From NCBI GenBank assembly GCA_017450645.1, contig JAFSTE010000007.1:1-50086 (forward strand): DNA of 50,086 bases, in the 5' to 3' direction. Of this stretch, positions 3,595 to 49,794 are shown one piece after another. The DNA comes from Eubacterium sp. (GTDB taxonomy: Bacteria > Bacillota > Clostridia > Oscillospirales > Acutalibacteraceae). The notes under the pieces were generated by a model, which made no database searches, had not been told where the DNA came from, and saw only the letters and a list, made by a program, of their open reading frames with translations. A program made the position numbers and the translations under genes. Numbering within the stretch: the first letter of the stretch is position 1; each line of letters opens with the position of its first letter.

Positions 3595-4071
3595 TTATCT
3601 GAAAGCGATAATCAGATATGTAGAGCCCGCTTCGTTATAGGTTCTGTACTCCATACCGTGAACGGGAATAGTCGACTGTAAAACGGTAAGATTCTTTCCG
3701 CTTATGGAAAGGCCGTTCATCGAGCCGCTTGTGGAAAAGATACCGAAATAGTGGTAACTCGCCTCGTTATTAATATCCACAACATGGGGCGTGTAGCTCG
3801 TCTTGAACACAATCCCCCACTTCGGCGAAAACGGCGCGCTTATAGAAATTGTTCTGTTCGCGTTGCCGTTACCCGTATAAGTCTGCATATAAAACGGCGT
3901 GCTCCACGCGGTTTTTTCCGAGGCAGTTGTGTGAATATTGCTGTTTGAAGTGTGGTCGGAAATCGCAAGGTCGATAATGCTGTTATCCTCGTTAAAATCC
4001 GCCATTTTAGGTATGTCCGAGCCAACCCAGTTATTGAGGTTAAGGTTTGGCGTTTTGTTTGTGCTACTCAA
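3595..4071 (-). CDS. Phage tail-tip/fibre-like protein (last gene of capsid-baseplate cluster)
   Basis: 158 residues. The N-terminus (PNLNLNNWVGSDIPKMADFN) is typical of short fibre or collar proteins at the end of clostridial prophage tail operons. The rest is a small beta-rich domain of unknown binding target. The start is TTG, chosen because AAGGAG lies 9 bases upstream and the protein begins MSSTNK. It overlaps the upstream DUF2313 gene by 8 bases. It is very short for a receptor-binding fibre. No chaperone, holin or endolysin follows. Confidence 0.6.
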   Translation of the reverse strand: MSSTNKTPNLNLNNWVGSDIPKMADFNEDNSIIDLAISDHTSNSNIHTTASEKTAWSTPFYMQTYTGNGNANRTISISAPFSPKWGIVFKTSYTPHVVDINNEASYHYFGIFSTSGSMNGLSISGKNLTVLQSTIPVHGMEYRTYNEAGSTYLIIAFR

Positions 4072-4627
4072 TCATATCACTCCTTAATGTATTAATTATG
4101 TTGAACTGCAGCGCCATTTTGTCAAGGCTGTAAAAGGTCTGGTTCCATCTGTCCCAGCTGTCAAAATCCATACCGTGTCCGTCAAAGTAGGTAATGGCGG
4201 AAAGCGAGGTGTAGCCCTTAATAAACTTACCAAGCTGAGCCAAATCCTCGGCTTCAACGCCGATAAAGGTTGTAATGATGTCGTCAAAGTCGTCCTTCTC
4301 GATTGTATAGCTGCCCGAGCCGACGAGCGAAAACTCGTCGTCAAACTCGCTTACCGTCGCTTTGCCGAAGTTCATTGAAAGGCGTTTTATAACCTCGTCC
4401 TTAAGCTCCGACTCGGTAAATCTTGACGCGTCGATATCAAGAAGCGCGGCGTACCTGTCGCCCCCGTCCTCGAGCAGCACCGCGCAAAGCGCTGCGGTAC
4501 AGTAATTCTTAACAAGCTCCAGCCCCTTTGAATAGGCGTAAATCTCAGCCTTTGTAATACTCCCCTCTTCAAAGCTCATACCCATATCCTCAAGCAGAGC
4601 TTTCATTCTCAAATACTCGTTATTCAT
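4064..4627 (-). CDS. DUF2313/XkdU-like baseplate protein (gpI-like)
   Basis: 187 residues, in the position after the baseplate J gene where PBSX xkdU (DUF2313, YmfQ-like) or P2 gene I lies. It begins with a helical segment (MNNEYLRMKALLEDMG) and has the mixed composition expected for this family. It overlaps the J gene by 8 bases and the fibre gene by 8 bases, which indicates translational coupling. Assignment rests on position plus general similarity and could be wrong in detail. Its expected role is linking baseplate wedge and fibres. Confidence 0.6.
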   Translation of the reverse strand: MNNEYLRMKALLEDMGMSFEEGSITKAEIYAYSKGLELVKNYCTAALCAVLLEDGGDRYAALLDIDASRFTESELKDEVIKRLSMNFGKATVSEFDDEFSLVGSGSYTIEKDDFDDIITTFIGVEAEDLAQLGKFIKGYTSLSAITYFDGHGMDFDSWDRWNQTFYSLDKMALQFNIINTLRSDMIE

Positions 4628-5684
4628 AGCAGTTTACCGTTAATTCGTCAAGCTGAAGATATGTGCTTTCGCTCGCGGTAATCACGCCGTTAACAGCCTG
4701 AGGTGAAGTAATGCTGCACTGCTTAATCGGGGCATAGTAAAGCATTAGATTAGAAAGGATATTAAGGTCTATGTCCTCGCCGATTTTAACGGAATTTACA
4801 AAGTCGCGTATTCTCTCTTCAATAACGCTTTGCGCTTCCTCGGCGCTGCCTCCGTTTAGAATTACGCTGATATTCAAATCGTATTCGCTGCAGCTTGCAA
4901 GCGCGATTGTAGGAGTGGAGTTTACGAGATATGCCACCAGAACCGCATTTGAAACAGCGTCCTCAAGCTCCTGAGAGAGCGTGTTAGTCTTAGTTTTAAG
5001 GTAGACATAAAACGCGTAGACGGAGTGCTTAACGATATTGCAGTCGAGCACATCGTCGAGCTTTAAAATTGCTTCTTTCATACTCTCCTCGGACAGACCT
5101 GTAGGCGGCACGCTGTAGGACTCGAGAAGCCTTTTTCTCAAGGACTCGTCGCTTTCGGCATCATAACCGCCCGTAAAGGCGAACTCGTTTGTTACAGCGT
5201 CGATGTAGCCCGGCGGATTTACTATAACCGTAACCGTACCCGCCTTGGCGTTATACATAGCGCCGTTTTCAACCGCCAGGGCAGGCACCGTAACGCTGAG
5301 CTCGCCCGCCGAAATTACCGCGCTTTGCGTAGTAGCGAACTGAATATAGGCGCTGTTCTCAACCGAGCAGATTGTGCCCTGAGGTATTTCGACATCGCTT
5401 TCGAGCGCTTCGACAAGCGAAAAAGTAAGCTCGCCGTACGCCTTTGACGCGGTTTTGCGCGTTATGCCGCGAAGCTCGGCGTGGCGGTCGAGATACTCGC
5501 CGCTCGCAGTCTGAATAAAGCTCTGGCGCAGCACAAAATCGCCGTAGCACGCAAGGTTAAACAGCTCGCTTGCAACTGCCTGAAAACGCGCGCCGAGGTC
5601 GCTTAAAAGGTCGGCGTTTTCTCCGGTAAGTTCAAAAAACGAATTCCTCATTTTTTCAAGTATCCGTTCATATGTTATATTCAC
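4620..5684 (-). CDS. Baseplate J family protein
   Basis: 354 residues, the usual length for gpJ/XkdT. It shows the baseplate_J pattern: an N-terminal helical part with the 'LSDLGARFQAVASEL' type segment, a central beta domain (QGTICSVENSAYIQFATTQ), and 'GGYDAESDESLRKRLL', which is the hallmark of the family. This protein forms the wedges of contractile-tail baseplates. The start is GTG, coupled to the upstream gene (GTGA overlap) with AGGTGA upstream. Confidence 0.9.
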   Translation of the reverse strand: MNITYERILEKMRNSFFELTGENADLLSDLGARFQAVASELFNLACYGDFVLRQSFIQTASGEYLDRHAELRGITRKTASKAYGELTFSLVEALESDVEIPQGTICSVENSAYIQFATTQSAVISAGELSVTVPALAVENGAMYNAKAGTVTVIVNPPGYIDAVTNEFAFTGGYDAESDESLRKRLLESYSVPPTGLSEESMKEAILKLDDVLDCNIVKHSVYAFYVYLKTKTNTLSQELEDAVSNAVLVAYLVNSTPTIALASCSEYDLNISVILNGGSAEEAQSVIEERIRDFVNSVKIGEDIDLNILSNLMLYYAPIKQCSITSPQAVNGVITASESTYLQLDELTVNCYE

Positions 5685-6013
5685 TGTTCTATAATCACCT
5701 GTCCTTGTGTATCATTGATTAAAAGATTGATTAGTATTGCACCGCTTTGGCTGTCAACTACTGCGCTTTTTACAAAAACGCCGTCGAGCTTGTCGAGCGC
5801 CTGCTGTGCAAAGGCTTCAATATATTTTTCGGGATTACCTGTATCAAGGCTGTATATCAGCGAGCCGAAATCCTTATTAGGATAAAATCTGCCGCGTTTA
5901 GCCTTAAGCAGTACGAAGGCGTTTTGCAAAAGCTCGTTTATGTAGTCTATCTGCTCAAGCGCCTTTTCTCCGCTGACAATAGTGTAATCGCCGTTCGTAA
6001 GTTTATCAGCCAC
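5681..6013 (-). CDS. gp25/W-like baseplate wedge protein (XkdS/DUF2634 type)
   Basis: 110 residues. The segment 'LLKAKRGRFYPNKDFGSLIY' is typical of the T4 gp25 / P2 gpW family, where the conserved residues nucleate sheath assembly. The start is GTG, behind GGGGTGAT. It overlaps the spike gene by 8 bases and the J gene by 4. In contractile phages gp25 is the point from which the sheath polymerises, yet no sheath gene is present in this cluster. Confidence 0.75.
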   Translation of the reverse strand: MADKLTNGDYTIVSGEKALEQIDYINELLQNAFVLLKAKRGRFYPNKDFGSLIYSLDTGNPEKYIEAFAQQALDKLDGVFVKSAVVDSQSGAILINLLINDTQGQVIIEQ

Positions 6014-6362
6014 TGTGTATCACCCCGTTTTTATCTATTTCAAGCGAATTGATAATAACGCTGCCGTTATTTTTAAGCATAATAATCGCGCCGCCCTTTG
6101 AGGTTATAAGTATCTCGCCGCTCTCAAGGCTCTGCGACTTGCACGCAGTACCAAGCGCAATACTGCCGTCGGAGGACGGAATAACCGCAACCTCCTCGCC
6201 GACAGGCACATTAGCGCAGTAGCCGTAAGGGGTGTAATTAATAAGCTTCTGAGCGCTCGACGACGCCCTCGCTTCGACATCGCCCGTACCCGAAATCGTA
6301 ATGCTTCCCTTTTCGGCAACTGCGGCGGGCGAAGCCTTTGAAATCATTTTACTTAGCCACAT
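6006..6362 (-). CDS. Baseplate spike protein, gpV/XkdR-like
   Basis: 118 residues with an OB-like centre (VPVGEEVAVIPSSDGSIALG) and a C-terminal stretch rich in short beta repeats ending in 'KNGVIHSG'. This layout is seen in gpV or XkdR-type central spikes. A GGAGG site precedes the ATG. It sits between the hub protein and the gp25-like gene, as in PBSX and P2-type clusters. No metal-binding HxH tip is evident. The role as spike is inferred from position and composition. Confidence 0.6.
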   Translation of the reverse strand: MWLSKMISKASPAAVAEKGSITISGTGDVEARASSSAQKLINYTPYGYCANVPVGEEVAVIPSSDGSIALGTACKSQSLESGEILITSKGGAIIMLKNNGSVIINSLEIDKNGVIHSG

Positions 6363-7302
6363 AGTTTACCTCCTTAAGTTCAACCGGCTTTTCAAGAAGC
6401 AACCTTGTAGAAGCGGTGCTGTCCTCCTGAGATACGCACACGCCTTTAATAACATAGCCGTCAAGCTCGCCCTCTGTCGGCGAGTCGTATTCAACCCTGT
6501 CGTAGAGGTTAAAATAGTTAACGCCGCTTAAAACTATCTCGGCGCTGATGTAGCCCGACGACGCTTTTTTCAGTCGGTTTTTAAGCGCGTACTCACGCTG
6601 CCAGGCGGGGAGCGCGGAAATGTTGATTTTTCTGCTTTTTGATATTCCCTTTTTTAGCAGATTCCTGCTTTCAAAATGGCGTGTATAACCCTCGTCACAA
6701 TCGAGCTTGTAGTCGATTTTTGAAATCGGCTGACCTCTGTTGATAATATGCTTTTCGCTGATTACATCGTCTTTGGTAAAGCTCGCGGTGCCGTTTGAAG
6801 CAGGGAGATATATTACATTTTCGGGCGACACCGCAATACTTTTTGAGGTTAAAACGCGAACGAAATCATTAATCGCGCCAAAGCAGCTGCTGCCCTTTGG
6901 CACAGTGTAGCTGTATTTACAGCAAAGCTCGTCAAGTCCGTTTTTAAAGCCGAATTTTTCAGCCTCTTTGATAAAAATCGCCTTTGCGCTCGGCGAATTA
7001 TATGTGGCGGGCTGAGCTTCGTTATCGACGAGAATACACGCCGACGAGCGCGCATAAACAAATACCTCAAATCCGCTATTTGTACGCTCGGTGCGCTGGG
7101 TATCGCAGTAGCCGAAAAACACCTTTTCACCGTCTATAAACGCGGCAACGCTTATAATCTCGTCGGGCTTTTCTTCAGCGATAAACTTAAGCCGAAGCCC
7201 GTCGCAGGCAGCCTCCGCGTCTTTAGTAAGCTCGAAGCCGACTATGTTTTCAACCTTGTATTTTTTGCCCTCGTCGGTGATTTCAAAAGCTATGCAAGCC
7301 AT
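6349..7302 (-). CDS. Baseplate hub protein, XkdQ / late-control gpD-like
   Basis: 317 residues, the usual length of the XkdQ/gpD (gp27-like) hub. Visible features are an N-terminal beta domain, the 'AYARSSACILVDNEAQPATY'-like region (here 'FVYARSSACILVDNEAQPA'), and a C-terminal domain ending near 'SGVNYFNLYDRVEY'. The hub is a trimer that joins the tail tube to the baseplate spike. It overlaps the LysM gene by 13 bases and the spike gene by 14 bases. Domain assignment is by family resemblance and gene order. Confidence 0.75.
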   Translation of the reverse strand: MACIAFEITDEGKKYKVENIVGFELTKDAEAACDGLRLKFIAEEKPDEIISVAAFIDGEKVFFGYCDTQRTERTNSGFEVFVYARSSACILVDNEAQPATYNSPSAKAIFIKEAEKFGFKNGLDELCCKYSYTVPKGSSCFGAINDFVRVLTSKSIAVSPENVIYLPASNGTASFTKDDVISEKHIINRGQPISKIDYKLDCDEGYTRHFESRNLLKKGISKSRKINISALPAWQREYALKNRLKKASSGYISAEIVLSGVNYFNLYDRVEYDSPTEGELDGYVIKGVCVSQEDSTASTRLLLEKPVELKEVNYVAK

Positions 7303-7805
7303 ACCTTATCACCCTCCGATACCGAAAACATATCAATATAATCGTTAAACTCAAAGAGTCTGTCGGTCTGTACATTACATCTGTTTGCTATATCAAACAG
7401 GTTTTCGCCGTTTCTCGCATAGGTGTAGCCAAAGGAGTAGTCGGGCTTTTTGCCCGAGCAGTCCTCGATAAAGGTAAAAGTGTATTCGATATACTCGTTA
7501 TCCGAACTGAGCTTAACCTCAAGGCTGTCAAAAAACGCCTTAACCGGCGGCAGCGCGGGGCTGAAAAGATATGACGAGCCGCTGTATTCAAAAGCCTTCA
7601 TAAGCTCGTTCATTTTTTCGCCCGCGTCAGAAGCGTAATACTTGCCGCTGCCCGTAATTACAGTAGGCATACGGCAAATCTCCTCCGCCCTGCCGAACGA
7701 AAAAGCGTTACTGCGCTTTACCGTCTTTTTTGAAAATTCAGCTTTGAGCGTGCTGGGGTTTGCGTCAAAAACAACCCCGCGAAAGCTCATTTTAATAGTG
7801 TTCAT
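7290..7805 (-). CDS. LysM-containing baseplate/tail-tip protein, XkdP-like
   Basis: 171 residues. The first about 120 residues are a beta domain (FSKKTVKRSNAFSFGRAEEI) like PBSX XkdP and other tube-initiator proteins. The last about 50 residues form a LysM module (NLFDIANRCNVQTDRLFEFN). In contractile phages this protein joins the end of the tube and tape measure to the hub. Here it is the first gene after the head connectors; only a 38-codon ORF separates them. The start is ATG, inside an ATGA overlap with that ORF. Confidence 0.75.
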   Translation of the reverse strand: MNTIKMSFRGVVFDANPSTLKAEFSKKTVKRSNAFSFGRAEEICRMPTVITGSGKYYASDAGEKMNELMKAFEYSGSSYLFSPALPPVKAFFDSLEVKLSSDNEYIEYTFTFIEDCSGKKPDYSFGYTYARNGENLFDIANRCNVQTDRLFEFNDYIDMFSVSEGDKVWLA

Positions 7806-7918
7806 TCCTCGTCCTCCCTTATTGCAGAATCGTATCTCCTTGAATCAAGATAAATATAGTCGCTCAGCGCCTGAGTATCGTCGCGGTTTACGGTGGTGTT
7901 TTCGTTTTCGTTATTCAT
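7802..7918 (-). CDS. 38-residue ORF at the position of the missing tail genes
   Basis: A 39-codon frame with GGTGAGGG just upstream of the ATG. It overlaps the connector gene's stop and shares ATGA with the LysM gene, so it is translationally coupled on both sides. The peptide is acidic and Asn-rich at the start, followed by a helix-like, charged tail (LSDYIYLDSRRYD). I do not recognise it. It occupies exactly the place where sheath, tube, tube chaperone and tape-measure genes lie in PBSX-like clusters. It may be a real small structural protein or a leftover of a deleted gene. Confidence 0.5.
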   Translation of the reverse strand: MNNENENTTVNRDDTQALSDYIYLDSRRYDSAIREDEE

Positions 7919-8318
7919 CGCCCTCACCTGTTCCTATATATGAATTTACGGTTATATCGCAGCTGCAGTTAAAACAGTTAAGCTCGTCAATCGCCTTAAT
8001 TTCGCTTACCTTTAATGCGTTAGGGTGTAAATCAAGCATAACTCCGATAGCTTTTTCGATAATATCGAGCGTTACGGGCGAGCCCTTTTCGTAAGGCACA
8101 AAGGCGTCAATTCTTACGCTCATTTTGCCCGCGAGTACACATTCGCCGAGCGAGATACTGTTTGCGTCAATAGTAAGCGGCGATACGGTAATAACGGTGT
8201 CAGGCAGCTTGGTGGGCTTTTTTACAAGCGGATACGCCGGCAAAACCGCAATATCCTCGAACGCCTCGCTGCCTTGAAGCATATCTACCGTTCTTTCTAC
8301 AAAATTAGTTAAATACAT
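7911..8318 (-). CDS. Head-tail connector / tail-terminator-like protein
   Basis: 135 residues. The start is ATG with GAGGAGG 8 bases upstream; longer starts upstream lack a site. A helical beginning (MYLTNFVERTVDMLQG) is followed by alternating beta strands. Its size and position (third gene after the capsid) match tail-terminator or neck proteins of long-tailed phages. Such a protein normally caps the tail tube, so its presence without a tube gene is notable. The specific role is inference. Confidence 0.5.
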   Translation of the reverse strand: MYLTNFVERTVDMLQGSEAFEDIAVLPAYPLVKKPTKLPDTVITVSPLTIDANSISLGECVLAGKMSVRIDAFVPYEKGSPVTLDIIEKAIGVMLDLHPNALKVSEIKAIDELNCFNCSCDITVNSYIGTGEGDE

Positions 8319-8667
8319 TTTCGTCCGCCTCCTCAAGCTTTTTAACAATTCCGCGGTAAAACTGAACCGTTCCGCCCGCCTTAACGCGCTCGCATCGCTC
8401 CACCTCATAAGGCTGTGAGTCTATGAGGATAACATCGTCTTTGCCGAACTCGCAAAGGTTTATATCGTAAGGGCAAACAATGTAATAGTACTCGTTATAC
8501 GCCCTGCCGATTTTAGTGGCTTTTTCCTCGAACTTGGTTTTGTTCTTTTTCCAGGTCTGTTCTGCTACGGCGAAGAAGGTTACTTCTTCGCCGTTTTCGT
8601 ACACTGCCGTCATTTCTCTGCCGACAGCTTTCAGATACTGTTTAACAGTTTTTTCAAATCTAAGCAT
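8305..8667 (-). CDS. Head closure / connector protein, XkdH-like
   Basis: 120 residues; start at MLRFEKT. The beta-rich sequence with 'VILIDSQPYEVERCERVKAG' followed by 'VQFYRGIVKKL' resembles head-closure proteins (XkdH, SPP1 gp16 type), which seal the portal channel after packaging. It overlaps the following gene by 14 bases. Assignment is from size, order and general fold pattern. Confidence 0.5.
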   Translation of the reverse strand: MLRFEKTVKQYLKAVGREMTAVYENGEEVTFFAVAEQTWKKNKTKFEEKATKIGRAYNEYYYIVCPYDINLCEFGKDDVILIDSQPYEVERCERVKAGGTVQFYRGIVKKLEEADENVFN

Positions 8668-8668
8668 A

Positions 8669-9025
8669 TCAGACACCCCTGAAAGCAAAACCGTTGCCGT
8701 TTACCATACCTTCCGCCGCTTCAAGCGCAAGGGCGAGCAGCTCCTTAACGCTGCTGACGCCGTTAGTGTTAAAGCCGAGCCTTACATCCCCTGCGGAAAA
8801 CGAGGACAGCTCGCCCGAAGCACCTCCGAGCAGCGAGATAGTATAGTAAGCCCTTGCCGCTGCAAGAAATACAATTCTGTCGTCGGCAGAATAAGCCTCG
8901 TCGGTAAGAGACGCTTCGATAGCACCTACGGAATTATTAATAACCGTCGAGTAGTTGTCGAGCTCCTCCGCCGAAAAGCCGCCGAGCTCCTCGAGCACCT
9001 TGGTTACTTCTTCAAGGTTAATCAT
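8669..9025 (-). CDS. Head-tail adaptor, gp6/gp15-like
   Basis: 118 residues from the ATG behind GAGGTGAGG (a GTG three codons earlier is also possible). It is mostly alpha-helical, with 'RIVFLAAARAYYTISLLGG' typical of gp6-like connectors that dock under the portal ring. It lies directly after the major capsid gene, as in HK97-type phages. Confidence 0.6.
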   Translation of the reverse strand: MINLEEVTKVLEELGGFSAEELDNYSTVINNSVGAIEASLTDEAYSADDRIVFLAAARAYYTISLLGGASGELSSFSAGDVRLGFNTNGVSSVKELLALALEAAEGMVNGNGFAFRGV

Positions 9026-9042
9026 ATGCCTCACCTCATTTA

Positions 9043-10029
9043 TTAATAGGTTGCAATCTGTGAAGCACCGTCAAAAATAGGTGAAAAGCCTGCGATACAG
9101 CTTACGCTTGCGCGCTCGAGCTGGCGGTCAATAAGCTTATCAAAGTCTGTAATGACGTCGCCCGCCTGAACCTTTTCAAGCGCGTAATTCTTATCAATAC
9201 CGATAATCCTTGAGTTGCCTTCAAGGCACTTCGCCTTAACGATTGTTGCGCCGAAAGGCGTAACCATTGAGCCTGTGCCGTGGAAGTTAAGACCTGCCAT
9301 AGCGTCCTTAAACTCGTCGATATTAAGAATTTCCGCAACAGTCTGGCTGTCCGTTACGATAGTGGTAAGTCTGTACGGGTCAAAGCTGTTCCAAAAGTCA
9401 ACAAGGTCAGCATATGTAATTCCGTTATCAAACTCGATTATATCGTCGCCCTTTGCTTCATTAATGGTAACGAGCGCGTCCAAAGTCTGGCATCTTGCAA
9501 TATAGTCGCCGATTTGCTTAAGGATAACGGTAAAGATGTCAAGCTTCTGGAACTTAACAGCCTCGTAGGATGCAACGAGCATTCTGCCCCTCTTTTTAAG
9601 CGGAGTGAGCGTGTCCTTAAGTCTTACATTAATCTCGGGGATGTGCGTACCCTCCATAATGTGTTCGTTGTCCTCGGTTTCGTCAATTATGCTCTCGATT
9701 GCTCTGTAGTCAAGAGAGTCGATATTAGTTGTGCTTGCCACAATCTGGCTTACAACATCTGATTCGGTGAGTCCCTGTCTTACGGCTCTTGCAACATACT
9801 CGGGGAAAAGTGCAGACGAGTCTGCGTTCTGGAAGAACTTAGATACGGTGTCGCTGTCCTTGCCCGATACCTTGATGTCAAATCTCTTGAGCTGGCGCTG
9901 ATATGCGTCGAGTCCCTCAAGCGCAGTGCCGTAGTAGTTTTCCGACGGGTCAATGCTTTCGAGTGCCTGTGTAAAGCTTTTTCCTGTAGTGTAGAGCTCT
10001 TTTTCGAGCTTTATGTTATCAAATGACAT
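9043..10029 (-). CDS. Major capsid protein (HK97-like fold, PBSX XkdG-type)
   Basis: 328 residues, about the usual size. N-terminal coil (ELYTTGKSFTQALESID) is followed by segments typical of clostridial major capsid proteins: 'FPEYVARAVRQGL', 'VVSQIVASTTNIDSLDYR', and the late 'GLNFHGTGSMVTPFGATIVK'. GGAGG precedes the ATG. It follows the small decoration gene and the protease-scaffold gene, the standard order. The frame is intact with no internal decay. Confidence 0.85.
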   Translation of the reverse strand: MSFDNIKLEKELYTTGKSFTQALESIDPSENYYGTALEGLDAYQRQLKRFDIKVSGKDSDTVSKFFQNADSSALFPEYVARAVRQGLTESDVVSQIVASTTNIDSLDYRAIESIIDETEDNEHIMEGTHIPEINVRLKDTLTPLKKRGRMLVASYEAVKFQKLDIFTVILKQIGDYIARCQTLDALVTINEAKGDDIIEFDNGITYADLVDFWNSFDPYRLTTIVTDSQTVAEILNIDEFKDAMAGLNFHGTGSMVTPFGATIVKAKCLEGNSRIIGIDKNYALEKVQAGDVITDFDKLIDRQLERASVSCIAGFSPIFDGASQIATY

Positions 10030-10048
10030 AAATAATTACCTCCTGTTT

Positions 10049-10396
10049 TTAGAGAATAAAGCCGACGATTTTGTTTGTGGTGTCGCGCTTTAAAACCTTG
10101 TAATATACGACATCGTTTTCGCCGCCCGCCTTAATGTTTGCGTTAGAGTCGCTGACAAGCGTTGCAAGTCCGACGCTCGGCGCAGAGCCCGAATACGGTA
10201 ACTCTACATAGCCTTCAACCTGAACGCTTGCATAGCCGTTTCTTACCGCGATACATACGCCGACAAAGTTGCCGCCGTTAGACGTCTTAACAGCCTGACC
10301 TAACGAGTTAACCGTTACGAGCTCGCCCGCTGTAATTGTTTCGCCTGTTTCAAATGTTAAACATTTTGTTTCATAACCCTTATGTGAAATACTCAT
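10049..10396 (-). CDS. Capsid decoration/stabilisation protein-like
   Basis: 115 residues, start at MSISHKG with AGGAGG upstream. It is a small all-beta protein (ETITAGELVTVNSLGQAVK) between the scaffold and major capsid genes, as for capsid decoration proteins. No membrane segment or enzymatic motif is seen. Confidence 0.6.
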   Translation of the reverse strand: MSISHKGYETKCLTFETGETITAGELVTVNSLGQAVKTSNGGNFVGVCIAVRNGYASVQVEGYVELPYSGSAPSVGLATLVSDSNANIKAGGENDVVYYKVLKRDTTNKIVGFIL

Positions 10397-10406
10397 TTTA
10401 TTCCTC

Positions 10407-11345
10407 CTAAATTCTGAATTGTGAATAATCGTTAGTTTTGATTTCCTTTTCTGCCTGCGCAAGCTGCGGGGTTAAGCCCTCGGGCTTCATGCCCTTTTTA
10501 AGACCGTCCTTAAACCCGATAAGCTCCTTTACCGTCATTACGGAAACAATCGAATTAAAAAGCTCGCTGTCAACATCGGGCAGCTTAATCGCAAGGAGCT
10601 TTGCTACCTCTTTTGAAAGCTCTTTTTTGTACCTCTCGCCAAGCTCCGCCTCCTCTGTAAGCTTGTCGATAAGCGCAGTGATTTGCTCGCTCTGCGACTT
10701 TGATAAAGTTACCTCGCCGTCGCAGGCTTTAATCGTTTTAATAATTTCCTGCATATCAGGCTCCTTTTCTTTTTTAAATGACTTTGTAACGCCTGCCTCG
10801 CGCTGCGCGGGCACCGCGACAAAGCTGAATTCGTAGGCGTCAAACGGCTCCTCAAGCACCGAAAATGCAAGCTCGCCGTCGTACATCTTGCCGCTTTTAT
10901 GCGGGCAGCTTTGCTTGCGCTTGTCCTTTTTGCAAACCGAGCATACGCTCTTGCCCATAGAACACGAAACCGAAACCTCTTTTTTAATTCCCGCCTCAAT
11001 CTCGTCAATAAGCGCCTTGTTTTCTTTGCTTTTAAGCATATATGCTCTTGCTTTAAGAACATAGAAATCCTCGCCGTCGGCAGTCTTTTTACCCTCCTCT
11101 TTTACAATATAGGTATCAAAAATTCTTGCCTTCTGGTCGGCGCTTTTCATCGAATGGTCGAAGATGCCCGTTTTGCCGATAAACATCGGCGCCAGCGCCT
11201 TTAAAGAGGCTACGGAAAACTTTTCGTAATCCCTGTCAATATCGTTATTGCAAAGGCTTACGGTAAAGATATACACCTCGTCCTCGCTTAGCTTTTTGCG
11301 TGAATAAGCGTTAATCTTTTCGATATCAGTCGTTTTGAGTTGCAT
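10407..11345 (-). CDS. Prohead protease with C-terminal scaffold (XkdF-like)
   Basis: 312 residues. Candidate catalytic His lies in 'GIFDHS' near residue 60 and Ser in 'KKEVSVSCS' near 125, the pattern of HK97-type prohead proteases. After the Ser comes a Cys/His cluster (C-x6-C-x2-C-x8-C-x-H), a probable zinc knuckle, then 'YEFSFVAVPAQREAGV'. Residues 200-300 are charged and helical (ELGERYKKELSKEVAKLL), as expected for a scaffold. It overlaps the portal gene by 20 bases and has a good AGGAGG site. Confidence 0.75.
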   Translation of the reverse strand: MQLKTTDIEKINAYSRKKLSEDEVYIFTVSLCNNDIDRDYEKFSVASLKALAPMFIGKTGIFDHSMKSADQKARIFDTYIVKEEGKKTADGEDFYVLKARAYMLKSKENKALIDEIEAGIKKEVSVSCSMGKSVCSVCKKDKRKQSCPHKSGKMYDGELAFSVLEEPFDAYEFSFVAVPAQREAGVTKSFKKEKEPDMQEIIKTIKACDGEVTLSKSQSEQITALIDKLTEEAELGERYKKELSKEVAKLLAIKLPDVDSELFNSIVSVMTVKELIGFKDGLKKGMKPEGLTPQLAQAEKEIKTNDYSQFRI

Positions 11346-12492
11346 CTTGTGCCTCCTTTAAATACTTGTCCGCCTCGGCATTGTACAGCCTTGCCTGAGC
11401 AAGCTGGGTTTCGTCCTGCAGCGTGATATCATCCCACACAACCTCTGCCTGAGAGGTGATACCGTTAATCAAAAGATACACCTCGCCGATTTTTTTAATA
11501 ACCGGCGTTACAATCCTTCGGTACGCTTCAAGCTCGGTCGTGAGAATATCCGCCTGCTGCTGGCTCATATGCTCTGTGGTGGACCAGCTGAGTCCGAACA
11601 TATACGGCATAAGTCCCGTCTTGGCGATAATCTGTTCGAGCATCTGCCTTGCGGGCACCTCGCTGTCAAGCACCTGATTGTCGGCGCCGATAACGCTGAT
11701 TTTTACATCGCCTACCGCAACGAAGTCCTTAACATTTTCCTTCGAGCTCATAGCGTCCTTCCACGCCTGTGCCATCTGGTTAGCGCGCTCCTTGGCGTAT
11801 GCCTTGTCGGTGGAGTCGTTTTGCGGCTTGTAGGTCACCGCGTAACGGAGATTACCTACGCGCTCCCAGTTAGTGCCTATGGTGTTATAAATTTTCAGCA
11901 GGATGTCGCTGACAAACGGCAAGCCGCGCAGCAAACTCGTTCCCACAAGGCTTCCCGGCTCGGGATTAAGCACGGAAAACAGCAGCTTTTCGGGCGAGGC
12001 GATTGCCACTTCCCTGCCGCTTGATACATTAAAGAATTCGGGCTCAATGCCGTCCTTTTTGCGTTTAACCTGCAACACATCAAGCTCGCCGTTATACAGC
12101 GCATAAAATCCGTTTTCGTCGTAGAGCATTTCGCCCACAGCGCTGCCGTAGGTAAGAAGCTGCTCCATATAGTTATCAACGAACGCCTGTATTCCCTGCT
12201 GATTTCCGCCAACGCTTACGGTGCTGAAAAACTCGTTAATCTCGTTATCAAGCGCCTCGTTTCCGGTCTTAAACTCAAAGCCGCCCATAAGGCGTACGAT
12301 TTTATAAATCGCGGAGTCGATAAGCGGAACAGCCTCGCGAAGCTCCCTGTAAACCCTGCCGTTTTTGCCCGACAGCGGCTCATAGCTGTTAAGCCCCCTG
12401 AACGGGTGAGTGCTGCTGCCGCCCGTCATAACGGCGGTGCCTGTATCCGTATTGTGTTCAGGCTCTGTTTTGTCCTTCTTGAATATGCCCAA
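11326..12492 (-). CDS. Portal protein
   Basis: 388 residues from a TTG start. The TTG is preferred because AAAGGAAG lies 7 bases upstream and the terminase stop is 4 bases before; upstream codons have no site. Portal-like features are 'YRELREAVPLIDSAIYKIV', 'GFYALYNGELDVLQVKRK', 'EKLLFSVLNPEPGSLVGTS', and the late 'YMFGLSWSTTEHMSQQQAD' with a C-terminal helix. Portal dodecamers form the DNA channel of the capsid. Confidence 0.85.
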   Translation of the reverse strand: MGIFKKDKTEPEHNTDTGTAVMTGGSSTHPFRGLNSYEPLSGKNGRVYRELREAVPLIDSAIYKIVRLMGGFEFKTGNEALDNEINEFFSTVSVGGNQQGIQAFVDNYMEQLLTYGSAVGEMLYDENGFYALYNGELDVLQVKRKKDGIEPEFFNVSSGREVAIASPEKLLFSVLNPEPGSLVGTSLLRGLPFVSDILLKIYNTIGTNWERVGNLRYAVTYKPQNDSTDKAYAKERANQMAQAWKDAMSSKENVKDFVAVGDVKISVIGADNQVLDSEVPARQMLEQIIAKTGLMPYMFGLSWSTTEHMSQQQADILTTELEAYRRIVTPVIKKIGEVYLLINGITSQAEVVWDDITLQDETQLAQARLYNAEADKYLKEAQDATQND

Positions 12493-12496
12493 GGCT

Positions 12497-13750
12497 TCAC
12501 TTCCTTTCAACCGCAATGGAGAAGGAACAGTCATCGCGCGTTTTGTTCAGAACCGTCTGTACAAAATAGCGAATGTCGTCCATTGCGTGGTCGTTTTCTT
12601 TTTTCGGCGCGTCCTTTTTTATCCCGTCGTCCCAGCGGTAAAGCGAAAATTCCTTAAGCGTGTCGACGCACAGCGGAGAAAAGAAAATCTCGCCGTTTTT
12701 AAGCGCGCTGCACACGCGGTTAATTCCGCTTATAACATCGTTGTCCGCCCTGATAACGCGGTATATGCCGTGGCGCTTAACCACCTCGATAAACGAGGCA
12801 GCGGACGGGTCGATAATAAGGGCGTTAATATCTCTGTCGCCCGCAAGCGCTTCGAGCTCGGCATAGTATTCCTCGTCGGTAAGCTGTACGCCCTTGTCGC
12901 GCGAGGAGTGGTAGTATTCGTTAATGCGGTACCAGCACTCGCCGCTTCTGCCCCACAGCCCGAGCGAAAAGGGATTGACCGTTCCGTAGTCGCACGAAAG
13001 GTAGTAGCTGTCGTAGCTTTCTGCCGTTTTAATGTGCTTTTCTGATGAGAACATCGGATAAACAAGTCCGTCCGCGCTCACCCATTTACCGAGGATAAAG
13101 CGTTCGTAAAACGCGCCTGAGTAAAGATTTTTGTAGCGGTTTTTTACCTCGTCTGAAAGAGAGGGATTGTCGTCCATCGTAAAATGGAGGTAGAGTATAT
13201 TCTTTTCGTCTGATTTTTTTATCCACTCATTATAAAACCAGTGAAAAGGATGCTCGGGGTTGCAGTTAAACCAGTACTTAGCGCCCTCAAGCGAGCACCT
13301 GGCAAGCGCCTGCTCAACAAACGAGCGCGGCATAAGCGCAACCTCGTCAAGAAGAACGCCGCCCAGGGTAATGCCCTGGATTAATGAAGCTGAGCTTTCA
13401 TCTCTGCCGCCGAACAGATAAAATCGGTTTTTCACGCCGCTCTTCTCGATAATCATAAGATTCCGGCTGATTTTTTCCTCAACCGTAAAGCCGAGGGACA
13501 GCAGTGTAGGCACAAGCGTAGTAATTACATTTCGCCTAAGCGAAGTAATCGTTTTGCCGCAGATGGCAAACGAGGTGTCGTTAAAACGGTAAAACGACCA
13601 GCATATAAAGGAAAGTGACATACAAAGCGTTTTGCCCGACCTGACCGCACCGTCGCAAATAATTCCGTTTTTGTTTTCGTAATTGCTGCCCTTGCACCAC
13701 CAGTTAAGGGTGAGTAGCTGTTTTTTTGAAAATGCTTTGAACTTAATCAT
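12497..13750 (-). CDS. Terminase large subunit (PBSX family)
   Basis: 417 residues, start at MIKFKAFSKK. The ATPase half has Walker A GAVRSGKT (34-41) and Walker B VLLDE (132-136). The nuclease half has acidic residues in SCDYG (Asp254), IIDPSAASF (Asp314) and HAMDDIRYF near the end. All expected catalytic residues seem present, so DNA packaging should be possible. It overlaps the small-subunit gene by 8 bases. AAGGAG lies a rather long 14 bases before the ATG; a TTG 42 bases upstream is the alternative. Confidence 0.9.
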   Translation of the reverse strand: MIKFKAFSKKQLLTLNWWCKGSNYENKNGIICDGAVRSGKTLCMSLSFICWSFYRFNDTSFAICGKTITSLRRNVITTLVPTLLSLGFTVEEKISRNLMIIEKSGVKNRFYLFGGRDESSASLIQGITLGGVLLDEVALMPRSFVEQALARCSLEGAKYWFNCNPEHPFHWFYNEWIKKSDEKNILYLHFTMDDNPSLSDEVKNRYKNLYSGAFYERFILGKWVSADGLVYPMFSSEKHIKTAESYDSYYLSCDYGTVNPFSLGLWGRSGECWYRINEYYHSSRDKGVQLTDEEYYAELEALAGDRDINALIIDPSAASFIEVVKRHGIYRVIRADNDVISGINRVCSALKNGEIFFSPLCVDTLKEFSLYRWDDGIKKDAPKKENDHAMDDIRYFVQTVLNKTRDDCSFSIAVERK

Positions 13751-14069
13751 TATTAGGAATATCGCTCCTTGCGTTTTCAATGCTCTTTTCAAGTGCCTGA
13801 TAAAAACTGAGCCCCTCGTCGCCCTTAGCGCTCTCGTTATCCCTTAGCCTTTCAAAAGCCTTAATCCTGTCGAAGAATTTAATCTCGAGCCCGCCGCCCT
13901 TAGGACGCTTTATCTCACTTATGTTAAACAGGTTTAGCTTTTTCAGCTTATCCATAGCTTCCTCGTCGCTCAGATAAAGCAGCGACACCGCGTCGCTGAT
14001 ATCGCCCGTTGCGAGCTTAAGTAAACCCTCCTCAACAAGTTCGGCTGTGGTCTTTTTTCTTCTTCCCAT
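13743..14069 (-). CDS. Terminase small-subunit-like protein
   Basis: 108 residues. Basic start (MGRRKKTTAELVEEGLLKLA), mainly helical, first gene of the cluster and overlapping the terminase large gene. Small terminase subunits recognise the packaging site. GAGGGG precedes the ATG. The usual N-terminal helix-turn-helix is not obvious, so a different DNA-recognition role is possible. Confidence 0.6.
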   Translation of the reverse strand: MGRRKKTTAELVEEGLLKLATGDISDAVSLLYLSDEEAMDKLKKLNLFNISEIKRPKGGGLEIKFFDRIKAFERLRDNESAKGDEGLSFYQALEKSIENARSDIPNND

Positions 14070-14220: not shown

Positions 14221-14244
14221 GCCATTTTATTCACGTTTTATGCA
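14221..14244 (-). repeat. Operator-like repeat, upstream copy
   Basis: Second copy of the 24-bp repeat. Two more GTGAATA motifs follow between it and the recG terminator. The 14070-14326 gap otherwise has AT-rich sequence and a weak TTTACA promoter box but no gene. Confidence 0.6.
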
Positions 14245-14265
14245 TATTCACAAAATTATTCACGC

Positions 14266-14305
14266 ACAAAAAAACAGGTCGTTTCACACAAGGTGAAACA
14301 ACCTG
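14266..14305 (-). terminator. Intrinsic terminator of the recG operon
   Basis: Hairpin CAGGT-GTTTCAC / GTGAAAC-ACCTG followed on the minus strand by seven T. It isolates the recG operon from the capsid cluster downstream. Confidence 0.9.
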
Positions 14306-27083: not shown

Positions 27084-29078
27084 ATGAACAAAAAGAAACG
27101 AACCTTCAGAACAGTGATAATGATTGTGATGATAATGGCGCTCGCAGGCGCAACCTTCCTCACATACAATTCGGCACAAGAGAGCGTAAGTTCCTCGATA
27201 TCAACCCAAATGCCTTCCCCACCGCAAGGACAAAGCGGACAACCGCCGCAAATGCCCGACAGCGACAGTCAAAGCAGCAACTCGTCAAACAGTGATTCGT
27301 CCAACCAGCCGTCGCAAGCACCGAGCGGCGACTCCTCAAGTGACAGCTCACAAGGTCAACCGCCCGAAATGCCGAGCGGAGATAATCAGAGCGGTGACTC
27401 GACAAATCAGACACCCGAAATGCCGAGCGGCGACAGTCAAAACAGCGACTCGTCAGGCGAAAGCTCATCAGACAATTCGTCAAGCGGTGACTCGTCAAGC
27501 GATTCATCAGAGAACAGTGACTCATCAAATCAGCCACCGCAGATGCCGGGCAGCGATTCGTCAGACGGCAGTTCGTCTAACCAGCCGCCGCAAATGCCAA
27601 GCGATATGAAGGGCGGCAAATCAAGTCTTTCGACAAAATACTATGTACTTTTTGCAATCGAAGGCTTATTGATGGGATTGATTTCGGTATATCTGATTAT
27701 GTCACGCTTTAATAAAAAAGATGTGGGCGAAGCACTTAAGGGCGGCAAAAGAATACTTATCTTTGCACTCGCTTCAATTATAATCGCTTCAGGTATTACC
27801 TTTACGGATGTAGCTGCGTGCTGCAGTACAGCACAATCTTCTCCGACATCTATGGGCGCACCGCAAGGCGGCGGAATGGGCGGCTCGTCAGGCTCCGAGA
27901 GCGTTGACGCTTCGGGCGCAGAAACTGTTGACGGTAAGGAAGAAACCCTTGATTCCACTTACACCTCCACCACAAGCGACGAAAGCGCGGTACTTGTTAC
28001 AAACGGCGGTAACGCTACGATTACCGGAACGGTTAACAAAAAATCGGGCGATATCTCAAACACCGAAAGCGGCGAATTTTACGGAATAAACGCGGGCGTA
28101 CTCGTTCAGGCAGATTCCACCGCCACTATCGAGGGCGCTACAATTTCAACAAGCGCAAAGGGCTCTAACGCCGTATTCTCAACCGGCGAAAACAGCAAAA
28201 TTTACATTAAGGACACCACCATTACCACAACAGGCGAAAGCTCGTCGCGCGGACTTGACGCGACCTACGGCGGCTATATCGAAGCCGACAATGTAACTAT
28301 CACGACTCAGGGCGGCTCGTGCGCTACGCTCGCAACCGACAGAGGCGAAGGCACCGTTATTGCAAAGAATTCAAAGCTCGAAACTAACGGCGCAGGCTCA
28401 CCGGTTATTTATTCAACGGGCGACATCAGTATTGAGAACACAACGGGTACTGCAAACGGCGCGCAAAACGTTGTAATCGAGGGCAAAAACTCGGCTACAA
28501 TCACTAACTCAACCCTTACCGCAAGCGGTGCAGGCAACCGCGGCGATGTGGATATAGCAGGCGTTATGATTTACCAGTCGATGAGCGGCGACGCAAGCGA
28601 AGGAACGGGCACATTTACCGCAACCGACTCCTCCCTTTCAATCGACAAGAACAGCGATTATTATAAATCCGCACCGATGTTCTTTATCACAAACACCGAC
28701 GCGGTAATAAACCTTGAAAATACTAAGCTCAGCTTCGGAAGCGGCGTGCTTATCAGCGCAAAGGGTACTGACCAATGGGGCAATTCGGGCTCAACCGGCG
28801 GTAATGTTACCCTTAACGCAACAAGCCAGACGCTCAGCGGAAACATCGAGGCTGACAAGATTTCAAAGGTAGAAATTAATCTTACGAAATCCACCTACAG
28901 CGGTACTATTAACGGCGACAACAGCGCAAGCGAGGTTAAGCTCACGCTCGACAAGAACAGCAAAATCACCCTTACGGGCGATTCGTATGTAACCTCTCTC
29001 GACAACGCCGACACAACAAACAGCAATATCGACTTTAACGGCCACACCCTTTATGTAAACGGTGAAGCGGTTAACTAA
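27084..29078 (+). CDS. Membrane-anchored surface protein: Ser/Pro-rich stalk, two TM helices, beta-helix-like domain
   Basis: 664 residues. One membrane helix (about 10-28) is followed by a 150-residue low-complexity stalk built of degenerate PPQMPSGDSQ-like units. Two further helices follow (about 186-208 and 222-246). The last 370 residues consist of short Thr/Ser/Asn-rich beta rungs (ATITGTVNKKSGDIS, 'TATIEGATIS') typical of right-handed beta-helices, as in pectate-lyase-like or carbohydrate-binding proteins. Topology predicts stalk and beta-helix outside. No sortase signal is seen. It is likely controlled by the adjacent two-component system. AAGGAG precedes the ATG. Confidence 0.7.
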   Translation: MNKKKRTFRTVIMIVMIMALAGATFLTYNSAQESVSSSISTQMPSPPQGQSGQPPQMPDSDSQSSNSSNSDSSNQPSQAPSGDSSSDSSQGQPPEMPSGDNQSGDSTNQTPEMPSGDSQNSDSSGESSSDNSSSGDSSSDSSENSDSSNQPPQMPGSDSSDGSSSNQPPQMPSDMKGGKSSLSTKYYVLFAIEGLLMGLISVYLIMSRFNKKDVGEALKGGKRILIFALASIIIASGITFTDVAACCSTAQSSPTSMGAPQGGGMGGSSGSESVDASGAETVDGKEETLDSTYTSTTSDESAVLVTNGGNATITGTVNKKSGDISNTESGEFYGINAGVLVQADSTATIEGATISTSAKGSNAVFSTGENSKIYIKDTTITTTGESSSRGLDATYGGYIEADNVTITTQGGSCATLATDRGEGTVIAKNSKLETNGAGSPVIYSTGDISIENTTGTANGAQNVVIEGKNSATITNSTLTASGAGNRGDVDIAGVMIYQSMSGDASEGTGTFTATDSSLSIDKNSDYYKSAPMFFITNTDAVINLENTKLSFGSGVLISAKGTDQWGNSGSTGGNVTLNATSQTLSGNIEADKISKVEINLTKSTYSGTINGDNSASEVKLTLDKNSKITLTGDSYVTSLDNADTTNSNIDFNGHTLYVNGEAVN

Positions 29079-46060: not shown

Positions 46061-46062
<2 letters not shown>
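46030..46062 (+). terminator. Terminator at the element end
   Basis: GGCATAAC/GGTTGTGCC-type stem followed by TTTTTCTTTTT on the plus strand. It faces transcripts entering from the GH3 promoter; on the minus strand it ends next to the recombinase stop. Confidence 0.6.
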
Positions 46063-47809
<1,747 letters not shown>

Positions 47810-47828
47810 TTAACGCGTGAAACTTAAA

Positions 47829-48095
47829 TTATTTTCCCATCTGTTCAATTAATCGGTCTATCCTGTCGGATACAGAAGTTTTTGCTTGACAATTAAAATG
47901 AGTGTTTACGCAGTAAACTGTACTGTCAATTTTCTTTTCAAAGTAAATCGGCTTTTTGAAAAACAGTTTGGCAAACCAACGCTTGCGTTCCTCCTCTGTC
48001 ATTCTGTCAAGCATCTCTAAAAACTCTTCTTTGACTTTTGAGAATTTTTCATATTCTTCCTTTGTGATAAGAATTTTTATCTTGTGTTTTCCCAT
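47829..48095 (-). CDS. Small mobile-element protein of unknown function
   Basis: 88 residues. Starts MGKHKIKILITKEEYEKF and contains a helical, charged middle (LDRMTEEERKRWFAKLFFKK). It overlaps the end of the relaxase gene by 19 bases, so it is translated with it. The N-terminal beta-helix-type start could be a ribbon-helix-helix remnant. I do not recognise the family. Confidence 0.55.
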   Translation of the reverse strand: MGKHKIKILITKEEYEKFSKVKEEFLEMLDRMTEEERKRWFAKLFFKKPIYFEKKIDSTVYCVNTHFNCQAKTSVSDRIDRLIEQMGK

Positions 48096-49483
48096 TCGTA
48101 ATTCCTCCTTCTGTTTCTTTCGTTTTGTCTTTGCTGAACGGTAAAGCGTTGCTGTTTTGCCTGTTCTTCTTTAGCAATATCCTCTTTTATTTTCGGGCTG
48201 TCATCAATGATGTGCTTGGCGGTACGGTTATCCTTTCGCATTGAGGTAAGCACGGTTGTAATGTCATCGCGTTTGGATTTGTATTCCTCTTTTTCAACAG
48301 GGTTATCCGTGCGGTTCATCCTTGCACGGATACGGTTGCGTTCTTTCTCAAGCATTTTGATTTGCTCTGTATTCGTTTCAATGAACTGCTGCACATCATC
48401 AGCGGTTTTGAAATCGTGTTTGCATATCAGTCGGATGTTTTCAGAGTAGCGGTCAATCCTTCGCCACGCTTCACGTATTTCAGGGGATAACGGTTTGTGC
48501 TGATTCTTTTTAGGTAAGTAACCTAAAAGATAGCAGTAGTATAGGTACAACGCTTTAAGTCCTGTTGTTTTTCGCGTATGCTGAAAGCTGCCTTTGAAAA
48601 TCATTGGTTTAGGGCGAATATATTTTTGTTCTGCTGCTCCCATATACTTTTTGTAACTCTCGTTTGCTACATAAACGTTTTGTTGTCTTACACGTTCTTT
48701 AATACGATAATAATCATATTCATCGCCAAGACGGAATAACCTTGTTGCCCTCTTGCCTCTGATTGGTTTTATTGTTGAGTATTCGCGGTTTGGGTCATAA
48801 TATATCGCATATCCCTGTTCTCTCATAACCTGCTTGAAGTTTTTCATAGTAACGCTGTGCTCAATAGCAAAATCAATTGCTTCTCTCATCAGGTTATACC
48901 TTGTCGGCTCGCCTCGTTTTTCCGCTTCATAGATTGCTCGCGGTGTTCTGCCAGAGGGATTTTTAATTACGGATAGATTGTGCTCCTTGCATATTCTGTC
49001 TGAGGTATCTCGGAACCGCTGAATTTCTTTCTTGTCGTAGTTGTATTTCTTGCCGTCAAGATATGAAACGGAGTTAATGCAGAAATGATTGTGCAAATGT
49101 TCTCGGTCAAGGTGAGTGGAAACGATTACCTGAAATCTATCTCCCCACATTTCCTTTGCAAGCTGCACACCGATTTTGTGACATTGTTCAGGCGTAACTT
49201 CATTTGGCTTAAAGCTTTGGTATCCGTGCCAAGCGATATATCCGTCTGTCTTGCGAAATTGCTTTTTAGTCATTATCATTTGCTTCAAGGCAATTTCCTT
49301 TACGCAGTTAATGGCGGTAACATATTGCTTGTCCGAAGTCTTATCATCTCTGGTAACATACCAAAAGAGATTTGAAAGGTCTTTCGGATCATCTTTCACT
49401 TCAATCGTTTTATCGGGATTTTCAACGTATTTGATTAAATCGTTCAGACTTCCTTCAATATGCCATAGTGAAGTGGTTGCCAT
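48077..49483 (-). CDS. MobA/VirD2-type relaxase
   Basis: 468 residues from the ATG behind GGGAGG. The metal-binding His motif is STHLDREHLHNHFCIN (His124, 129, 131, 133). An N-terminal nicking Tyr candidate is Y42 (FWYVTRDD) or Y54. A C-terminal coiled region is rich in Lys/Glu/Arg. Relaxases nick oriT and pilot DNA in conjugation. No transfer apparatus is visible, so the element is mobilizable rather than self-transmissible. Confidence 0.9.
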   Translation of the reverse strand: MATTSLWHIEGSLNDLIKYVENPDKTIEVKDDPKDLSNLFWYVTRDDKTSDKQYVTAINCVKEIALKQMIMTKKQFRKTDGYIAWHGYQSFKPNEVTPEQCHKIGVQLAKEMWGDRFQVIVSTHLDREHLHNHFCINSVSYLDGKKYNYDKKEIQRFRDTSDRICKEHNLSVIKNPSGRTPRAIYEAEKRGEPTRYNLMREAIDFAIEHSVTMKNFKQVMREQGYAIYYDPNREYSTIKPIRGKRATRLFRLGDEYDYYRIKERVRQQNVYVANESYKKYMGAAEQKYIRPKPMIFKGSFQHTRKTTGLKALYLYYCYLLGYLPKKNQHKPLSPEIREAWRRIDRYSENIRLICKHDFKTADDVQQFIETNTEQIKMLEKERNRIRARMNRTDNPVEKEEYKSKRDDITTVLTSMRKDNRTAKHIIDDSPKIKEDIAKEEQAKQQRFTVQQRQNERNRRRNYEWENTR

Positions 49484-49794
49484 TATGCCACCTCCCAAGG
49501 TTGAGTACTCTCAGACTGAAACTTCATTATCCAATCTTCTAACTGCTCGCAAGCCATCAGAATATTTGTATTATCCTCGGCATTATCCTTTATGACGTTA
49601 TGGATAGCATATAGCTCGTTCATCAATTCCCAAAATCTTTTTTCAGGCATACTGTGCGGAACAATGAAATGAATAAGCATACGCACATATTCAGACTTGT
49701 TACCGCCGGTAAGCCTTGCGCCTGCTTCAAGCTCCGCAATGTCTTTATCGTAAAGCGAAATGGTTACCTTTTTTCTTTTATCTTTTTCTTCCAT
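49483..49794 (-). CDS. MobC-like relaxosome accessory protein
   Basis: 103 residues from the ATG behind GGAGTG. Ribbon-helix-helix start (KVTISLYDKDIAELEAGARL), then 'NKSEYVRMLIHFIV' and a helical tail, typical of MobC proteins that bind near oriT. The stop overlaps the relaxase start (TAATG). Confidence 0.75.
   Translation of the reverse strand: MEEKDKRKKVTISLYDKDIAELEAGARLTGGNKSEYVRMLIHFIVPHSMPEKRFWELMNELYAIHNVIKDNAEDNTNILMACEQLEDWIMKFQSESTQPWEVA

Follow-up and report, generated by a model that had tools for sequence, protein, structure and literature searches.

The window analysed here is a 50,086-nucleotide stretch of DNA from a Eubacterium sp. (Clostridia; Oscillospirales; assembly GCA_017450645.1, contig JAFSTE010000007.1). 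On its minus strand, from position 14069 to 3595, it carries a 10.5-kb chain of 17 open reading frames (ORFs) for a terminase, a head, a neck and a Mu/PBSX-type baseplate. We think this is probably a domesticated, mainly vertically inherited element of the gene transfer agent (GTA) kind, a viriform that packages host DNA and whose baseplate is docked on the neck. A domesticated DNA-carrying capsid or a reduced GTA was also the reading offered by an initial annotation of the DNA, and we support it because the anatomy of the cluster, the selection on its genes and its co-diversification with its hosts all fit. Domestication is strongly supported; a role in gene transfer is likely.

Gene content of the cluster

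The ORFs are open and overlapping throughout. Products were assigned by matches to Pfam and PHROG, and profiles of the relatives were later compared with PDB entries (E-values are given).

13743–14069, minus strand: small terminase subunit (TerS), 108 residues; PF03592, 1.5e-4, below the curated cut-off
12497–13792, minus strand: large terminase subunit (TerL); PF03237, 2.5e-15; phrog_2, 1.1e-47
11326–12534, minus strand: portal; phrog_30703, 3e-126
10407–11345, minus strand: protease/scaffold-like protein; phrog_16951, 4.4e-89 (a family with no named function); weakly phrog_3244, head maturation protease, 0.037
10049–10462, minus strand: capsid cement protein; phrog_4588, 7.7e-17; PF09956, 5.1e-4, below cut-off
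9043–10029, minus strand: major capsid protein; phrog_3922, 2.1e-74; PF25209, 9.3e-9
8669–9034, minus strand: connector 1, head-tail adaptor-like by position; weakly phrog_541, 0.13; conserved in relatives
8305–8688, minus strand: connector 2, stopper-like by position; weakly phrog_793, 0.081, and phrog_161, 0.23; conserved
7911–8318, minus strand: connector 3, predicted tail terminator by predicted fold
7802–7918, minus strand: 38-residue peptide, a stub at the tape-measure position, by conserved motif and position
7290–7805, minus strand: XkdP-like baseplate tube initiator with LysM, by predicted fold
6349–7302, minus strand: baseplate hub, Mu gp44/XkdQ-like; relatives' profile to 1wru (Mu gp44), 3.6e-6; phrog_177, 9.7e-5
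6006–6362, minus strand: spike, Mu gp45-like; phrog_25991, 3.1e-8; relatives' profile to 9ki1_V (Mu gp45), 0.021
5681–6013, minus strand: gp25-like wedge; relatives' profile to 9euf_L (phage 812 wedge), 0.0017; no Pfam or PHROG match
4620–5684, minus strand: gpJ-like wedge; PF04865, 6.4e-38; phrog_6, 9e-64
4064–4627, minus strand: DUF2313/gpI-like wedge by position; no Pfam or PHROG match; collinear in relatives
3595–4071, minus strand: fibre or receptor-binding protein; phrog_33092, 3.7e-6, over residues 1–42

Family matches and profiles thus confirm the open, overlapping cluster running from phage head to neck to baseplate that had been read from the letters, and the terminase motifs judged intact at that time hold up as well. 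Over 92 aligned rows, the Walker A, Walker B and nuclease aspartate positions of TerL are conserved, apart from one gap and from two positions at which Thr/Ser and Asp/Glu exchanges are seen. The TerS match spans only positions 58–126 of a 141-position profile, positions 1–57 of Terminase_2 being missing, and TerS is kept across the genus. A TerS lacking this N-terminal part of the profile is no more than suggestive of random host DNA packaging. As previously stated, reading of the ORFs reveals no integrase, repressor, replication or lysis gene in the cluster; lysis genes were not looked for elsewhere in the genome.

Connectors 1 and 2 match PHROG families weakly (E 0.039 or worse) and connector 3 matches no Pfam or PHROG family; comparison with the PDB gave nothing useful for the profiles of connector 2, connector 3 and the capsid. 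The portal probably starts about 14 codons downstream of 12534, and alignment places the probable start of connector 3 at 8318.

A conserved junction without tube or sheath

Loci were retrieved from 33 other genomes of the same genus, and 28 of these span the junction between connector 3 and the XkdP-like gene; four of the others stop short of it. Gene order is identical in all 28 (the cement gene went undetected in eight), and none contains a sheath, tube or chaperone gene by profile. The same profiles match no window ORF of at least 25 residues, in agreement with the initial annotation, which had listed these three genes and the tape measure as missing.

As the plain alternative, the annotation had named a defective prophage whose tail genes were recently deleted, and the Mu/PBSX-like gene order with a gap in it has that appearance. 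A recent deletion is contradicted, because the tubeless junction is the same in 28/28 same-genus loci that span it; low dN/dS and co-diversification with the hosts also stand against it, and we give it hardly any credence. Tail genes in close relatives combined with decayed frames here had been regarded as the mark of an ordinary damaged prophage. Such genes do occur, only outside the genus, and no decayed frames were seen in the window.

The gap itself, positions 7805–7911, is not empty. It is filled by a conserved 38-residue ORF (7918–7802, minus strand) that the initial annotation had missed, the only small ORF that fits the interval between connector 3 and the XkdP-like gene. Of 29 distinct same-genus loci, 26 have a peptide with the motif (D/E)x(K/R)R(Y/F)D directly upstream of that gene; over all 82 loci inspected, the number is 44. 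A profile of the 26 peptides and that of the window was run against 12,376 ORFs taken from outside the genus, in other genera and families, and 15 matches had E<1. Fourteen of these end in RRY or RRF, a related motif, and wherever the distance to the XkdP-like gene is known (nine matches), it is at most 26 bases. The matches comprise ORFs of 25 to 100 residues and the C-termini of proteins of 159 to 229 residues, which sit at the tape-measure position of loci that also have a sheath and a tube. We conclude that the 38-residue product is a putative conserved anchor of an otherwise lost tape measure, homology being seen at the level of motif and position and the tape-measure role being taken from gene order. 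Apart from this putative stub, the tape measure is missing, as claimed.

A tube fold concealed in one of the connectors had also been considered. Connector 3 was predicted to fold as a tail terminator, and a hidden tube there was rejected on this prediction (connectors 1 and 2 were not folded); a tube-like (gpN-like) fold is predicted one gene further on, at the N-terminus of 7290–7805, which makes that part a predicted tube initiator.

Sheath, tube and tape measure might instead come in trans, from a helper prophage or a second locus. It is common for GTAs to be scattered over several loci (PMC9662315), and the GTA of Faecalibacterium prausnitzii (FpGTA) has two operons (PMC12946183). We searched the genome of the window, an assembly that is 87% complete, and found no match to Phage_sheath_1, the DUF2001 tube or PhageMin_Tail, nor to the tube family of the element itself. 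Among same-genus genomes, a sheath was found in 2/60, a DUF2001 tube in 3/60 and PhageMin_Tail in 11/80, and the element's own tube family in 0/80, the last search having no positive control. Tail genes in trans were rejected on these searches, and we consider such a supply very improbable.

Distribution, selection and inheritance

Within the genus, 71 of 80 genomes have a portal (35/60 in a first sample). Across the order, 70 of 394 genomes have a strong portal match and one more has a weak match, with one strong copy per genome. The strong portals fall into the host's own family (35/43 genomes), families f14 (20) and f26 (11) and three others (4); relatives of the element span at least six families of one order. 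In a class-level sample of 391 genomes, only three marginal matches (E 2.8e-4 to 9.3e-4) were obtained outside the order. The order of the head genes varies in two loci: cement and capsid precede portal and protease in L113, and the capsid precedes the protease in L234.

The initial annotation had suggested measuring dN/dS across relatives. Ratios were tabulated for 16 of the 17 genes, leaving out the cement gene and excluding ratios with saturated dS. They range from 0.05 to 0.37 wherever computable and are rough values, synonymous sites being near saturation. All 16 genes with ratios show purifying selection. A dN/dS of 0.45 for recG is an artefact of a 50-residue misalignment.

A midpoint-rooted element tree was built from TerL, portal and capsid (57 rows; L100 and L118 left out for missing genes), and the element was also compared with two host trees. 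In the element tree, the genus (17/17), its family (36 rows, joined by the faecal contig MT835508) and family f15 form clades, and f14 does so but for a single f2 row. The first host tree was built from five secY-operon proteins and includes 27 of 30 genomes (two had no match and one was cut). Its Mantel correlation with the element tree is 0.849, a value reached in 0/2000 shuffles; 18/24 splits are shared, compared with a shuffle maximum of 4, and 14/17 supported host splits are recovered. In our reading, the element has been inherited mainly vertically, with losses, from a time before the diversification of the family. The second host tree, based on RpoB from 28 of 30 genomes, splits up the genus itself, while the secY-operon tree keeps it together. 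RpoB of three same-genus genomes (G009, G030 and G033) groups with other genera and family f14, a possible case of rpoB transfer.

Among 50,697 phage records, capsid relatives are found only in five faecal contigs filed as "Bacteriophage sp.", and portal relatives only in those five and one distant phage (29%). In one of the five, MT835508 (L059), a copy of the element limited to the head genes is flanked by genes for ribosomal proteins and other housekeeping functions. By its genes it is a piece of bacterial chromosome, either a contamination or packaged chromosome. SecY, looked for as a possible sign of packaged chromosomes, is encoded in 14 phage records, three of them faecal "Bacteriophage sp." contigs.

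Graded tail reduction in relatives

Outside the genus, loci are found in a range of states: sheath, tube and mini tape measure; tube only; a terminator-tube fusion; a terminator-fibre fusion; and head and neck only. In f14, profiles place a sheath between neck and baseplate in 16 of 19 retrieved loci, and two of these sheaths were checked as Phage_sheath_1/1C. Of the 16, 15 have a protein of about 129 residues at the tube position and 12 a chaperone-like gene. A sheath is present in 3/11 loci of f26 and in 1/27 loci from other genera of the host's own family (2/27 being cut before that place). Four own-family loci (L120, L129, L238 and L253) have a separate tube-position gene and no sheath. 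The tube label is based on position, size and conservation, the PHROG family being unannotated; a virion protein family is matched weakly in second place.

In seven loci (two perhaps from one genome, some with E near 1e-3), connector 3 and the tube-position protein are a single ORF; from this we infer one tube ring per terminator ring. In five loci, connector 3 is fused to a fibre domain (L121:8155-9084, L122:7956-8780, L145, L146 and L183). No baseplate gene was found after this fusion in L121, L122 and L146, and L145 and L183 are short contigs. In some genera, the locus ends after the neck or the hub. The graded loss of the tail, together with fusions of the terminator to tube or fibre, suggests that shortened tails are selected states and not decay.

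These states may be stages of one history. An order-wide GTA at least as old as the host family could have had its contractile tail dismantled stepwise, from sheath and tube with a mini tape measure to a tube only, then to one fused ring and then to none, a scenario for which we see about as much reason for belief as for doubt. In it, this genus would have the terminator on the baseplate via the 38-residue stub, and another branch would have lost the baseplate and joined the fibre to the neck as a fusion. All of these forms would still deliver DNA.

The versions lacking gpJ also raise the idea that the capsid is kept for another job, such as storage or export of DNA or protein, or host-encoded interference with phages by reuse of the head. 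Genera with gpJ-less loci were represented by 20 genomes, and in 18 of them the gpJ family has no match anywhere (G449 and G331 have a family member on another contig). However, the terminator of one gpJ-less genus carries a fused fibre domain (L121 and L122), which points to cell binding, and the nuclease and ATPase positions of TerL are conserved. We regard another job for the capsid as improbable.

Comparison with known phage-derived particles

The tail of the Rhodobacter capsulatus GTA (RcGTA) is siphovirus-like, whereas the element in the window has a Mu-type baseplate and no tube. With the contractile tails of phage Mu and the P2 type, it shares a gpN-like initiator, a gp44-like hub and a gp45-like spike, but it has no contractile sheath, tube or replication module. 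PBSX of Bacillus subtilis has baseplate genes in the order XkdP/XkdQ/gp25/gpJ-type, as here, and has a sheath, a tube and a tape measure. None of these three is present at the locus, with no family match in the genome (87% complete) either, and, in a further difference from PBSX, the element is inherited across a family.

PBSX is described as a GTA-like element that is said not to inject the DNA it packages and to act as a tailocin (PMC12946183). By this precedent, and with its baseplate and fibre retained, the element might be a killing particle that packages some host DNA and acts as a bacteriocin on kin through the baseplate, with no gene transfer. Against this, there is no sheath and thus no contractile puncture. 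In addition, some relatives lose the baseplate genes at the locus and keep terminase and head, so DNA packaging, and not puncture, is the conserved part. A killing particle is unlikely, though it deserves somewhat more weight than any of the other alternatives.

The initial annotation knew of no described system of this make-up. FpGTA (Borodovich et al. 2026, PMC12946183), which appeared in January 2026, closely matches it in gene content; among the papers listed by our literature searches, no other came close to the element. FpGTA consists of a 10.5-kb head operon and a second operon of 5.5 kb with baseplate, fibre and lysis genes, and it has been linked to 40-nm particles with no identifiable tails and about 9 kb of DNA inside; random chromosomal fragments of 8.4–8.9 kb were reported from faecal particles (PMC12946183). 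The two share (i) a clostridial gut host, (ii) genes for TerL, portal, scaffold and capsid together with a TerS in which no DNA-binding domain is obvious, and (iii) baseplate and fibre genes with no replication genes. They differ in that the two FpGTA operons, about 125 kb apart in one strain, include holin and endolysin, whereas here there is one 17-ORF chain in which no lysis genes were read. FpGTA was reported in Faecalibacterium and not in Gemmiger or Subdoligranulum (PMC12946183), a narrower range than that of the relatives described above.

GTAs have been defined by six features (PMC9662315), of which three can be seen in sequence here and the other three are experimental. The three are (i) caudoviricete-derived proteins, since terminase, portal, capsid and baseplate resemble phage proteins; (ii) full endogenization, given the chromosomal setting, a DUF1015 gene downstream in 20/27 loci and one strong copy per genome; and (iii) vertical inheritance and co-diversification, seen with the secY-operon tree of 27 genomes and more weakly with RpoB. 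The experimental ones are the packaging of mostly random host DNA, a head too small to take the whole locus (10.5 kb here) and the delivery of packaged DNA to other cells.

Evidence against a domesticated GTA

Several observations weigh against a domesticated GTA. The element in the window is known from genes alone, and its likeness to FpGTA is a match of gene lists. By reading, no lysis gene is linked to the cluster. Some copies look broken: 3/71 same-genus portals are affected (G841 and G827 contain stops and G081 is split), a few more being cut by contig ends, and 2/70 strong portals of the order sample hold a stop (G446 and G262). No portal match was found in 9/80 same-genus genomes, and in the remaining non-spanning locus (L058, genome G020) a portal fragment is directly followed by the spike gene, by deletion or misassembly. 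From the broken portals, the genomes without a match and the gap in G020, we take the element to have been lost in places.

The trees do not agree throughout. In the element tree, f26 does not form a clade, and two supported splits of the secY-operon host tree are contradicted. With the RpoB tree, the Mantel correlation is 0.41 over 28 genomes (0.75 within the genus), 11/25 splits are shared and there are 23 conflicting supported pairs. Finally, relatives of TerL occur in 440 phage records, with identities of about 50% for the best named phages, and a portal relative is present on 269 IMG/VR "viral" contigs (the 80 whose cluster make-up was looked at show the same kinds of cluster). Free relatives of the element are therefore possible.

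A model for packaging and delivery

If the element is a domesticated GTA, TerS without its presumed DNA-binding region would feed TerL non-specific host DNA, with which the small head would be filled. The neck would end in a ring of tail terminator that, the tube being gone, docks directly on the ring of the XkdP-like tube initiator, and the 38-residue remnant of the tape measure perhaps holds this docking. Hub, spike, wedges and fibre would then form a very short nozzle that binds a kindred cell and passes the DNA. Delivery would proceed without contraction, because the sheath is missing. Lysis of the producer cell would depend on genes encoded elsewhere.

Flanking genes and other features of the window

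The cluster had been placed between recG and a DUF1015 gene. The downstream part of this setting is common, since, of 27 same-genus loci extending beyond the fibre gene, 20 have DUF1015 there (once inverted, in some with intervening genes); recG is upstream in only 2/33. One feature lies in the interval between recG and the element:

14275–14305, minus strand: terminator-like hairpin, a 13-pair stem with a T run; consensus match only

A weak promoter-like site ahead of TerS shares the stretch 14224–14305 with the hairpin. Together, the hairpin after recG and this site suggest a separate transcript for the element. Scan totals are close to chance, with 19 promoter-like sites against 13.1 expected and 22 terminator-like sites against 14.9. 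LexA-type boxes gave 0 matches against 0.75 expected.

Elsewhere in the window, two ORFs at 46061–49498 (minus strand) read as a large serine recombinase (579 residues) and a relaxase or mobilisation protein (473 residues). The G+C content there is lower, about 0.39–0.40, and this reading, made without a family search, suggests a mobilisable element at the window edge. At 27084–29078, a 664-residue protein reads as a Ser/Pro-rich N-terminal part followed by a repeat-rich, beta-helix-like part.

Implications

The element resembles known GTAs but is much wider in its range. If the stepwise scenario is true, DNA delivery through a contractile-type baseplate needs no tail tube. GTAs outside the Alphaproteobacteria would gain a second and far wider base, in one ancient element family carried by many genera of an order of Clostridia, and the relatives would provide a natural series of contractile tail dismantling in which the head, the packaging motor and often receptor binding are kept. 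Two questions become testable: whether Clostridia exchange genes by domesticated particles, and how minimal a tail can be for DNA delivery. For gut bacteria, the element would represent an overlooked route of gene swapping.

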